Shown here piece after piece: positions 16,339-20,051 of a DNA stretch of 45,917 bases. Every line of letters starts with the position of its first letter. The first letter of the stretch is position 1. The stretch is from an uncultured SAR86 cluster bacterium (GTDB lineage: Bacteria > Pseudomonadota > Gammaproteobacteria > Magnimaribacterales > AG-339-G14). Where the stretch lies: assembly GCA_902514765.1 (NCBI GenBank), contig CABXSA010000005.1:1-45917 (forward strand), written 5' to 3'. The notes under the pieces are model-generated. The model searched no databases. It worked only from the letters and a program-made list of their open reading frames with translations, and was not told the origin of the DNA. The translations under genes and the position numbers were made by a program.

Positions 16339-17409
16339 ATGAAATATTTAACGGATAATACCAGAATAACAGGCTTGATGGAGGTGTCTCCTCCTGTGGA
16401 AGTTATTGAAAAGCTTCCAATTTCAGAAAAGGTTTCGGAACTGGTTTTCAATTCCAGAAATGAAATCTCAGATATTCTTCACGGAAAAGAAGATAGATTG
16501 GTTGTAGTTGTTGGTCCATGTTCAATCCATGATCCTAAAGCTGCGATTGAGTATGCTAAAAAACTCAAAACCCTAGAAAATGACTTAAATGATCAGCTCA
16601 AAATAGTTATGAGAGTTTATTTTGAAAAACCCAGAACGACTGTTGGTTGGAAAGGTCTTATTAATGACCCAAATCTAGATAATAGTTATGACGTAAATAA
16701 AGGTCTCAAGGTAGCTAGAAAGCTTTTATTAAAAATTAATGAATTGGGTTTGCCTGCGGGAACTGAATTTTTGGATATGATTACTCCACAATATATTTCA
16801 GACTTAATTTCTTGGGGTGCAATTGGAGCTAGAACTACCGAAAGCCAAATACATAGAGAGTTAGCTTCAGGTTTATCTTGTCCGGTTGGATTTAAAAATT
16901 CTACTAACGGTTCTATTCAGGTTGCCTTGGATGCAATCGGCTCCTCTTCAAACAGCCATATTTTTCTTTCCATCACGAAAGAAGGAAGATCTGCTATTTT
17001 CAATTCTTCTGGAAATAAAGATTGTCATGTGATTTTAAGAGGTGGAGAGGCTCCAAATTATTCAAAAAATGACATAAAAAGAGTCAATGAGGATTTAAAA
17101 AATTCTAATATTACTCAAAAAATCATGGTTGATATGTCACACGGAAATAGTCAAAAACAATTCAAAAAGCAACTCATAGTGAACAAAGATATTTCAGATC
17201 AAATTGCATCAGGAGATCAAAGTATTTTTGGAGTTATGATTGAAAGTAACCTGGAAGAAGGAAACCAAAAAATAGATTCACTTAAAAACCTTAAATATGG
17301 CCAAAGCGTTACTGATGCCTGTGTAAGTTGGAAAGATACCGAAGTGATGTTAAAGCTCTTAGCTAAAGCCGTTGATGCCAGGAGAGAAAAACTTAAGCGC
17401 TCTGCCTAA
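16339..17409 (+). CDS. 3-deoxy-7-phosphoheptulonate (DAHP) synthase, class I
   Basis: VVVGPCSIHDPKAAIEYA, MRVYFEKPRTTVGWKGLINDP, GARTTESQIHRELASGLSCPVGFKN, DMSHGNSQKQ. Paralogue (aroF/G/H) cannot be assigned by eye. Confidence 0.95.
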   Translation: MKYLTDNTRITGLMEVSPPVEVIEKLPISEKVSELVFNSRNEISDILHGKEDRLVVVVGPCSIHDPKAAIEYAKKLKTLENDLNDQLKIVMRVYFEKPRTTVGWKGLINDPNLDNSYDVNKGLKVARKLLLKINELGLPAGTEFLDMITPQYISDLISWGAIGARTTESQIHRELASGLSCPVGFKNSTNGSIQVALDAIGSSSNSHIFLSITKEGRSAIFNSSGNKDCHVILRGGEAPNYSKNDIKRVNEDLKNSNITQKIMVDMSHGNSQKQFKKQLIVNKDISDQIASGDQSIFGVMIESNLEEGNQKIDSLKNLKYGQSVTDACVSWKDTEVMLKLLAKAVDARREKLKRSA

Positions 17410-17413
17410 GTTT

Positions 17414-18370
17414 ATGTCAAAAAAATCAAACATATTAAGCTTTGACAAAGAAATCGCTTCTAGCATTGGTCTAAAAGAAGCAATTGTTCTTCAATTACTT
17501 AATACCAGTACAAAGCTCAGTTTACATTTATTATTAAACAAACTTTCATTTATTGAAGAAAAAGATATACAAAATGTTCTTAAAAAACTTCTTAAACTTA
17601 AATTAATAGAAGAGTCATCGAAAGAGACTTTTTGTCTTAAATTTAAAGGTGAAGAAATTATCCCGGAGAGAAAGCAAAATATTTCTAAAAGATATATCCC
17701 TTCTAATAATATTTTGAAAGAAGCTAAAAGCCTTGGTGTTTCTGAAGACTTCATTAAAACTAAACTTCCTGAGTTCAAAATTTACTGGTCCGATCGAAAA
17801 GATAAAAGCTTCTCTTGGGACTATAAATTTCTTAAATACCTCTTAAAAGAATGGAGAAGCGAAGAAGAAAAATTGAATAAGGCATCCAAAAAGAGACCAA
17901 TTGAAAAAAATTGGAAGCCTTCAAAAGAAGCATTACAAATATTAAAACATGCCGAAATAGAAGAAAAATTTATCATTGACGCCTTGCCAGAATTTATTTT
18001 GTATTGGAGCGATAGAAATACAGCATCAGATTCATGGAATAGTAAATTTCTAAATCATATTAAAAATCAGTGGGTCAGATATCAAAATTTAATTTCTTTA
18101 GTTAGGAAACCAACTAGAATGAGTAAAGATTGGAAACCTTCAGGAGATTGTTATGATGTTTTGAGTTTAGCCAAAATAAATAAGAGTTTTGCTTTGTCTC
18201 AAATACCAGAATTTAAATTATATTGGTTGGAGACAAAAGAAATGCGTAATTGCTGGAACTCTAAGTTTATCCAACATGTTAAATTTAAATGGAAAGCTAA
18301 ACATGGGAATACAAAAAATGTATTATCAAGACTAAAAGATGATGAGTGGGCAGTTAACTTCAAAAATTAA
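17414..18370 (+). CDS. Protein with three tandem DnaT-like C-terminal domains (putative primosomal / ssDNA-binding protein)
   Basis: Three homologous segments: RYIPSNNIL..LPEFKIYWSDR..SWDYKFLKYLLKEW; NWKPSKEAL..LPEFILYWSDR..SWNSKFLNHIKNQW; DWKPSGDCY..IPEFKLYWLET..CWNSKFIQHVKFKW, resembling the DnaT domain. Start trimmed from 17372 to ATG 17414. Confidence 0.78.
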   Translation: MSKKSNILSFDKEIASSIGLKEAIVLQLLNTSTKLSLHLLLNKLSFIEEKDIQNVLKKLLKLKLIEESSKETFCLKFKGEEIIPERKQNISKRYIPSNNILKEAKSLGVSEDFIKTKLPEFKIYWSDRKDKSFSWDYKFLKYLLKEWRSEEEKLNKASKKRPIEKNWKPSKEALQILKHAEIEEKFIIDALPEFILYWSDRNTASDSWNSKFLNHIKNQWVRYQNLISLVRKPTRMSKDWKPSGDCYDVLSLAKINKSFALSQIPEFKLYWLETKEMRNCWNSKFIQHVKFKWKAKHGNTKNVLSRLKDDEWAVNFKN

Positions 18371-18941
18371 AATACCTCAAAGCCAAGTAGAGCTAATTAA
18401 TCTCATTTTTGCAGAGTTAGAAATCACTTTTCATAATCAATTTCATAAAGCATTTCCTGATGAGGAAACCTTATCCTTAGCTAAGCAACTTTGGCTCGCA
18501 AAGCTAAAAAAATATCAAAATGAGATAGTATTCAGAGCAATAGATAAAATTATAGAGACTTCAAAATATTTGCCATCTCTTAGCGCAGTTTTAAATCAAA
18601 TTAAAGAATTAAAACTTCTTGAACAAAATATCCCCTCTTCAAATGCTGCTTATGTTGAAGCAAGTTCTCTGGGAGAGACAAATCCATTGGATTTTAATTG
18701 GTCTCATCCATTTGTTTATCATGCTGGTGCAAAAATAGGCTGGTATAGGTTAAAAACAGAGTCTGAGTTTGATATTAAAAAGGAATTCTTAGAGGCCTAT
18801 GAGGAAGTAATAGAAGAAAGTGAATTTAAGGAAAGTCTGCTCCTTTTACCTGAAATCAAAAAAGGGTTTAATGAAGAAAAGCCCCTTTCAAGTGATTTAC
18901 AAAAATTAAGGCTGGAGAAGATAAAAAAGAAATATTTGTAG
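18339..18941 (+). CDS. Lambda replication protein P-like protein (putative replicative helicase loader)
   Basis: LIFAELEITFHNQFHKAFPDEETLSLAKQLWLAKLKKY..LPSLSAVLNQIKE and HPFVYHAGAKIGWYRLKTES resemble the replication protein P family; overlaps the DnaT-like gene. Confidence 0.6.
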   Translation: MMSGQLTSKIKIPQSQVELINLIFAELEITFHNQFHKAFPDEETLSLAKQLWLAKLKKYQNEIVFRAIDKIIETSKYLPSLSAVLNQIKELKLLEQNIPSSNAAYVEASSLGETNPLDFNWSHPFVYHAGAKIGWYRLKTESEFDIKKEFLEAYEEVIEESEFKESLLLLPEIKKGFNEEKPLSSDLQKLRLEKIKKKYL

Positions 18942-18958: not shown

Positions 18959-18995
18959 CGCCCCTCGCCTCTATATAAAGTTGAGGGATTATTTA

Positions 18996-20051
18996 ATGAG
19001 TATCGTTTCAAAGTTTCTTAGCAGATCCAACTTAGAATGGGCGTCTATTTTCATTGGTTTTGCAATAATTTGGATGGTTTCTGGTCTATTCGTTCAAGAA
19101 CCGGCTCCTAAGGCATTGATTGAAAAAAAAGATGCAGTAGTTAGGGTTATTGATCAAAAAGCAGAGAATTTCTCTAAAGAAATTGTAGTCAAAGGTTTTA
19201 CAAAAGCTGATAAAAAAGTATTAGTCAAATCAGAAACCTCAGGGAAAATTATCGATTTACCAATTGCCCAAGGTACTTTTGTTAAAAAAGGGGATGTTAT
19301 CTGTTCTTTGTTTGTTGCCGAAAGACAAGCAAATTTTGATAAAGCATTGCTTGATTTTAATTCAGCACAAAAACTTTACGAAGAAGAGCTTTATTCATCA
19401 AAGCAACTGCAAAATGCAAAATCAAATTATGAAAGAGCTAAACTTGAATTAGACTATGCAAGCATAAAAGCGCCATTTGATGGTGTAGTAGATAAAATTG
19501 ATTTGGATGTTGGAGATTTTCTAAGTCGCGGCTCTACCTGCGCTACCCTTTTGGATTTAGATCCTATGATGGTAACAGGTGATATTTCTGAATCTGAACT
19601 TTTAGATTTAACAAAAGATAGCGGCGTTAAAGTTGTAACCAATGATGGTCAAGAGTTTCAAGGACAAATTACTTTTATCTCTTCTTCAGCAGATGAGATG
19701 ATGCATACTTTTGACATTGAGATTTCTATCCCCAATCCACTTGGAAAGATCAAAGATGGACAAACAGCTGAAGTGGTAATCTTTGCTACTCCTGAGCCAG
19801 CTCATATAGTTCCACTTTCAATTCTAAGATTAGATGAGGCAGGTGATATTGGTGTCAGAGTCGTCAACAAAGATAGTCTTGTTGAGTTTTATAAAGTGGA
19901 AATCATTCAAGATACAGAAAAAGGAGTTTGGGTGACTGGTCTACCTTTCAATTCAAGAATCATTACTGTCGGTCAGGACTATGTAAATAACAATGAAAAG
20001 GTTGATATCGCGATTGACTATAGACTGAATACTGATGAAAACATTAATTGA
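18996..20051 (+). CDS. RND efflux system, periplasmic adaptor (membrane fusion) subunit
   Basis: SETSGKIIDLPIAQGTFVKKGDVICSL lipoyl-type motif, APFDGVVDKIDLDVGDFLSRGSTCATLLDLDPMMVTGDISESEL. Start set at ATG 18996, not TTG 18981. Confidence 0.9.
   Translation: MSIVSKFLSRSNLEWASIFIGFAIIWMVSGLFVQEPAPKALIEKKDAVVRVIDQKAENFSKEIVVKGFTKADKKVLVKSETSGKIIDLPIAQGTFVKKGDVICSLFVAERQANFDKALLDFNSAQKLYEEELYSSKQLQNAKSNYERAKLELDYASIKAPFDGVVDKIDLDVGDFLSRGSTCATLLDLDPMMVTGDISESELLDLTKDSGVKVVTNDGQEFQGQITFISSSADEMMHTFDIEISIPNPLGKIKDGQTAEVVIFATPEPAHIVPLSILRLDEAGDIGVRVVNKDSLVEFYKVEIIQDTEKGVWVTGLPFNSRIITVGQDYVNNNEKVDIAIDYRLNTDENIN

Follow-up and report, generated by a model that had tools for sequence, protein, structure and literature searches.

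Tandem DnaT domains beside a lambda-P-type loader gene: a probable resident helicase-loading system of SAR86 bacteria

The tandem-DnaT gene and its domains

The window, that is, the whole stretch of DNA analysed here, comprises 45,917 nucleotides from an uncultured SAR86 cluster bacterium. The open reading frame at positions 17414–18370 of its forward strand encodes a protein of 318 amino acids with several DnaT domains, designated here as the tandem-DnaT protein, and it is followed by a gene for a lambda-P-type helicase loader, designated as P. The features of the locus are as follows.

Features of the locus (positions in the window, strand).
16339–17409 (+): aroG (DAHP synthase), the conserved upstream neighbour in SAR86 and in G141, a gammaproteobacterial genome outside SAR86
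17414–18370 (+): tandem-DnaT protein gene, 318 amino acids plus stop, second gene in the order aroG – tandem-DnaT – P – RND
17447–17638 (+): N-terminal winged helix, residues 12–75 (AlphaFold2 order H-H-H-H-E-E; Foldseek; weak HTH Pfam matches in family members)
17678–17872 (+): DnaT domain 1 (PF17948, 52.7 bits alone), degenerate in several SAR86 clades
17897–18088 (+): DnaT domain 2 (PF17948, 84.6 bits alone)
18116–18313 (+): DnaT domain 3 (PF17948, 80.3 bits alone)
18329–18352 (+): C-terminal peptide RLKDDEWA of the tandem-DnaT protein with a D-x-[SDEH]-W motif (motif counts; lambda O sequence)
18342–18941 (+): gene for a lambda-P-type DnaB helicase loader, 199 amino acids, overlapping the tandem-DnaT gene by 29 nt (phrog_109; fold match)
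18909–18938 (+): C-terminal basic helix of P, RLEKIKKKYL (AlphaFold2 helix 184–198 after a low-confidence linker; C-terminal motif score)
18981–20051 (+): RND efflux membrane-fusion protein, the conserved downstream neighbour in SAR86

The initial annotation of this DNA had described three DnaT-type repeats spaced by about 72 residues (approximately 17690–17875, 17906–18094 and 18125–18304) behind a possible winged-helix N-terminus. A Pfam search assigned each of the three to the DnaT domain, every repeat alone exceeding the cut-off of 25 bits (E = 3.6e-14, 4e-24 and 8.3e-23 for repeats 1–3, and 8.1e-59 for the whole protein). The HMM matches are spaced by 73 residues and lie within ~15 bases of the positions given earlier. 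In E. coli DnaT, Phe124, Tyr127 and Trp128 contact the bases of ssDNA and Lys143 contacts the backbone (PMC4132743). Alignment indicated that the corresponding positions are Phe, Tyr, Trp and Lys in all three repeats of the window; the E. coli ssDNA residues Lys133, Phe135 and Arg146 are not conserved in them, and the loop is shorter with other residues. The tryptophan of domain 1 is gone in 12 of 19 aligned tandem-DnaT proteins.

The AlphaFold2 model of the protein (mean pLDDT 80.7) consists of a winged helix at residues 12–75 and three helical bundles, whose relative placement is unreliable at a pTM of 0.36. In agreement with the winged helix suggested earlier, Foldseek matched the N-terminal part to the winged helices of Zalpha and Rpa2 (probability 1.00, rmsd 1.1–1.3 Å). 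The same search with the whole model returned winged helices only and no DnaT match, and a sequence search of solved structures gave spurious matches only. The PHROG matches are replication initiation proteins. No match of the window protein belonged to the lambda O family, and the 19 relatives gave one weak match of this kind (phrog_678). The window protein is not an orthologue of DnaT, whose N-terminal domain is replaced here by a winged helix. Its named relatives at 66–89% identity are from SAR86 cluster bacteria.

The lambda-P-type neighbour

The ORF at 18342–18941 matched phrog_109 (P-like helicase loader) with an E-value of 5.7e-16 and scored 24.6 bits against the Pfam family Phage_lambda_P (PF06992), just below the cut-off of 26. 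The three best PDB matches of its predicted structure (pLDDT 83) by Foldseek are the lambda P chains of 9oa1, a DnaB–lambda P complex (probability 1.00, TM 0.54–0.60), and the next is the SPP1 loader G39P. The initial annotation was right about the domains, the winged helix and the chromosomal location; it had overlooked this gene and the C-terminal peptides as well as the lack of DciA and DnaC, and its fixed trimer of DnaT domains was not supported (see below).

A shortened P was observed in one genus (g11) of SAR86 family f3, in which the middle of the protein is lost and the N-terminal part and the tail are kept. The example in G050 (L062:6848–7288) has 147 amino acids and retains the C-terminal helix LEKLRKKHKI.

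Distribution and gene order in SAR86

SAR86 families are designated f1 (the family of the window) to f4. The DnaT domain was found in 92 of 101 SAR86 genomes, including 38 of the 39 near-complete ones, and the gene is conserved in place. It is therefore a resident chromosomal gene, with a domain copy number of two or three set by clade. Three domains are present in f2 and in genera g1 and g3 of f1, and two in f3 and f4; genera g2 and g4 of f1 score two because domain 1 is degenerate.

The gene order aroG – tandem-DnaT – [P] – RND efflux pair is common to all sampled SAR86 families, with P directly 3' of the tandem-DnaT gene in f1 and f3 (53 genomes). The nine genomes without a DnaT domain also have no aroG match at the limit used, so that the entire locus is missing from them. 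Five of them (G012, G024, G032, G060 and G068; G012 is a single contig) form a subgroup of f4 with no tandem-DnaT gene, and the helicase-loading system may have been lost in these.

Other helicase loaders

DciA was detected in none of the 101 SAR86 genomes and in 227 of 276 sampled Gammaproteobacteria. DnaC was not found in SAR86 either: an IstB/DnaC-type search gave weak matches only, in frames of ~430–500 amino acids (DnaA-sized) or ~800 amino acids (Lon-sized). Frames of these sizes would be expected to encode DnaA, Lon or related AAA+ proteins and not DnaC.

Outside SAR86, tandem DnaT domains occur in the class sample only in two gammaproteobacterial genomes, G103 and G141. Each encodes a protein with three DnaT domains and a P-like gene downstream, and both are DciA-negative. 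G141, the one genome representing its order, is GC-rich and 3.2 Mb in size with aroG directly upstream of the tandem-DnaT gene; in G103 the pair is present without an adjoining aroG. All six tandem-DnaT genomes of the sample are among the 49 DciA-negative ones (hypergeometric probability 2.4e-5, or 0.005 if they are counted as three lineages). A lambda-O-type gene paired with P, again without DciA, was found in family f91 (G187 and G293). In another DciA-negative genome, G243 (family f145), a single ORF of 385 amino acids (L129:703–1860) combines a region resembling a winged helix with the N-terminal half of a P-type loader.

C-terminal peptides of the two proteins

The motif D-x-[SDEH]-W stands at the C-terminus of 32 of 33 unfused tandem-DnaT proteins and of 8 of 8 phage proteins, versus 4 of 730 other ORFs. 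It ends the tandem-DnaT proteins of f1, f3, G103 and G141 (the last from its sequence), and the phage tandem-DnaT proteins end in LTDRSWA. The C-terminus of lambda O is LTNTDWIYGVDL, which ends in LTNTDW. Possibly the motif is a P-specific binding peptide. Its partner may not be P, because Mu-like phages carry it with no P found adjoining and f2 keeps it without P.

In f3 the C-terminal sequence of P follows the pattern L-x-x-L-[RK]-x-K-[YHL]-x-[ILV], and the P proteins of f1 end in similar basic helices. The C-terminus of lambda P is ...LAKIAEIKAKFGLKGASV. In the lambda P–DnaB structure a lasso sets a helix of P against the linker helix of DnaB, and the last visible segment adjoining that helix was assigned by the authors to the lambda P C-terminus (eLife.41140).

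Loss of P in two families

The P profile was negative in all 32 genomes of f2 and f4 tested, including the single-contig genomes G005 and G008. A second P elsewhere was rejected on this basis as an explanation of the loss, and a match in G033, 46 positions long at E = 0.05 and containing a stop, was discarded as noise. All tandem-DnaT proteins of f2 and f4 examined end in a basic helix of the P type, ten residues long (e.g. LKELRNKYKI and FKKLKEKHQI). These ends score 13–21 bits with a position matrix derived from the tails of seven f3 P proteins, and none of 552 other C-termini scores above 7.1 bits; L025, a truncated ORF, and a few rows from f2 and f4 were left out of these scores. No sampled internal 10-mer reaches 12 bits, and the unfused tandem-DnaT proteins of f1 and f3 score −2.7 or less. 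In G103 and G141, where P is present, the tandem-DnaT proteins lack a P-type tail. The matrix fails on the tail of lambda P, the best 10-mer of which (3.0 bits) lies elsewhere in the protein. The link to the lambda P tail is therefore weaker, and is based on position, similarity by eye (LAKIAEIKAKFGL) and the fold match.

In a tree of AroG, RND and ScpA, f4 groups with f3 (support 99–100) and f2 stands apart. A single clade of f2 and f4 with one loss of P was rejected by the AU test (p about 4e-4). The simplest history suggested by these sequences would be that P was lost twice independently and that its C-terminal helix remained each time on the tandem-DnaT partner. Such a pair of losses would be a natural experiment indicating the smallest part required for DnaB recruitment, and the SAR86 families would appear to represent unusual evolutionary steps on the way to a loader of one protein.

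Proposed function

SAR86 is among the commonest bacteria of the surface ocean. Our literature search found no paper that treats it together with DnaT, or together with DnaA and replication initiation. For helicase loading in bacteria without DnaC, DnaI or DciA, this locus gives a concrete candidate. Because DciA is absent, DnaC was not found and a P-type loader adjoins the tandem-DnaT gene, we consider it likely that the locus is the resident SAR86 system that places DnaB on ssDNA, in the role held elsewhere by DciA or DnaC. We infer both its role in initiation and every binding event given below. The pair is a variation on known replication modules, and DnaT domains, known almost only from replication restart in E. 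coli, serve as modules in phages and chromosomes alike.

In the proposed mechanism, the linked DnaT domains would wrap or coat a short stretch of ssDNA, each domain being expected to hold about two bases by the Phe-Tyr-Trp triad and the lysine, and the winged helix would localise the protein to duplex DNA or to a partner. The tandem-DnaT protein would then hand over to P, possibly via its C-terminal D-x-S/D/E-W peptide. The role of P would be to open or brace the ring of DnaB, and the basic helix at the C-terminus of P would probably dock on the linker-helix region of an adjacent DnaB subunit, as seen in the lambda P–DnaB complex. In f2 and f4, where the body of P is lost, the helix of the same type at the tandem-DnaT end would probably recruit DnaB directly. 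As a tentative reading, a single protein may be the whole DnaB loading factor in these two families, its two or three linked DnaT domains holding ssDNA and the lambda-P-type helix, acquired twice independently at the loss of P, recruiting DnaB. If true, such a helicase-loading system would be unusually small for a bacterium, with the tail of P as the indispensable part.

An unlikely alternative is that the pair acts solely in restart, as E. coli DnaT does together with PriA when forks have collapsed, and that oriC uses DnaA and another, unrecognised route of DnaB loading. The DnaT domain is known from PriA–PriB–DnaT restart (PMC13377028), and the model phage Mu, whose relatives carry tandem-DnaT proteins, needs host PriA and DnaT (PMC3325207). 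PriA was above the cut-off in 36 of 41 SAR86 genomes. However, it was undetected in f1 genera g2 (G003 and G039) and g4 (G035 and G047), and the pair is kept there, also in G003, whose genome is complete in a single contig; this makes it unlikely that the pair serves PriA-dependent restart only. Restart alone would also leave oriC loading with neither DciA nor DnaC found, and the DnaT N-terminal domain with the acidic PriB-binding linker is replaced by the winged helix.

PriA was undetected in exactly those f1 genera in which DnaT domain 1 is degenerate, a coincidence that amounts to one phylogenetic event only. Since the C-terminal domain of E. coli DnaT docks on PriA (PMC13377028), the copy that docks on PriA in the tandem-DnaT protein may be domain 1.

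The initial annotation had interpreted the three domains as a built-in trimer that fixes the stoichiometry of DnaT at three. The clades with exactly three domains (f1 g1 and g3, f2, G103 and G141) are in line with this, as is the clustering of the domains of tandem-DnaT proteins by position in a domain tree. The count per SAR86 genome is three in 42, but it is two in 48 and one in 2; f3, f4 and the Mu-like phages have two domains, and domain 1 is degenerate in several clades. Moreover, the C-terminal domain of E. coli DnaT forms an open filament on ssDNA, with 2 nt per interface and four subunits seen (PMC13377028). We give little credence to the fixed trimer. Because the E. coli domain assembles as an open filament, we rather interpret the three linked domains as the seed of a filament, linked in advance.

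That the protein is a transcription factor or another DNA-binding protein of an aroG–RND operon, outside replication, is very improbable. The winged-helix N-terminus and the metabolic and efflux genes on either side would suit such a function, and yet the downstream gene resembles a lambda-P-type loader in both profile and fold, the PHROG matches are replication initiation proteins, and the pair occurs in G103 without an adjoining aroG. The idea of a recent prophage remnant that serves no function on the chromosome, raised by the domain relatives in phages and by prophage-like single-domain copies in other Gammaproteobacteria (G336 and G166), was rejected as next to impossible, because the place of the gene is constant in all sampled SAR86 families, its frames are intact across the order and no phage genes are nearby.

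Comparison with known systems

As a likely resident DnaB-loading pair, the SAR86 genes are comparable to both phage O/P and E. coli dnaT–dnaC; as in E. coli, a putative holder of ssDNA is followed by a candidate DnaB loader, which is of a different type. The likeness to E. coli extends to the domain itself, which scores above the cut-off and keeps the Phe124/Tyr127/Trp128/Lys143 positions, and to the position of dnaT directly upstream of dnaC. E. coli DnaT has one C-terminal DnaT domain after an N-terminal oligomerisation domain and the PriB-binding linker, whereas the SAR86 protein has two or three in tandem after a winged helix, and the E. coli partner is the AAA+ protein DnaC instead of a lambda-P-type loader.

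Lambda shares with SAR86 the gene for a DNA-binding initiator overlapping that for the downstream P loader, the fold and C-terminal basic helix of P, and the similar initiator ends (LTNTDW in O, RLKDDEWA in SAR86). It differs in that the SAR86 protein has tandem DnaT domains and not the C-terminal domain of lambda O, and in that its gene is a resident chromosomal one. DopC/DopE, reportedly defined by Brezellec and co-workers in 2017, are said to be a domesticated lambda O/P pair on the chromosomes of bacteria without DnaC/DnaI and DciA. By this definition, the SAR86 pair is similarly resident in genomes without DciA and DnaC/DnaI, but its upstream partner is not of the lambda O type and P is gone in two families. 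The pair in family f91, of lambda-O-type and P, resembles DopC/DopE.

Tandem DnaT domains are not unique to the SAR86 chromosome. Mu-like phage contigs in IMG/VR (L141–L147) encode proteins of 166–214 amino acids with two DnaT domains, beside GemA and Mor. They share the tandem domains and, in the LTDRSWA end, the tryptophan motif with the SAR86 protein; unlike it, they have two domains and no winged helix, and no P was found adjoining. For a direct phage ancestor, tblastn against phages gave weak matches to the DnaT domain only and none for P, and a scan of IMG/VR for P gave one distant match. A DnaT-domain protein is also encoded near a LexA-family regulator on plasmid pC of Spartinivicinus ruber (L123), possibly a phage-plasmid. 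On another viral contig (L140:2862–3659), a lambda-O-like C-terminal domain (FYKHYP...TYLNQERW) is joined to two DnaT domains and the end LTDRSWAE.
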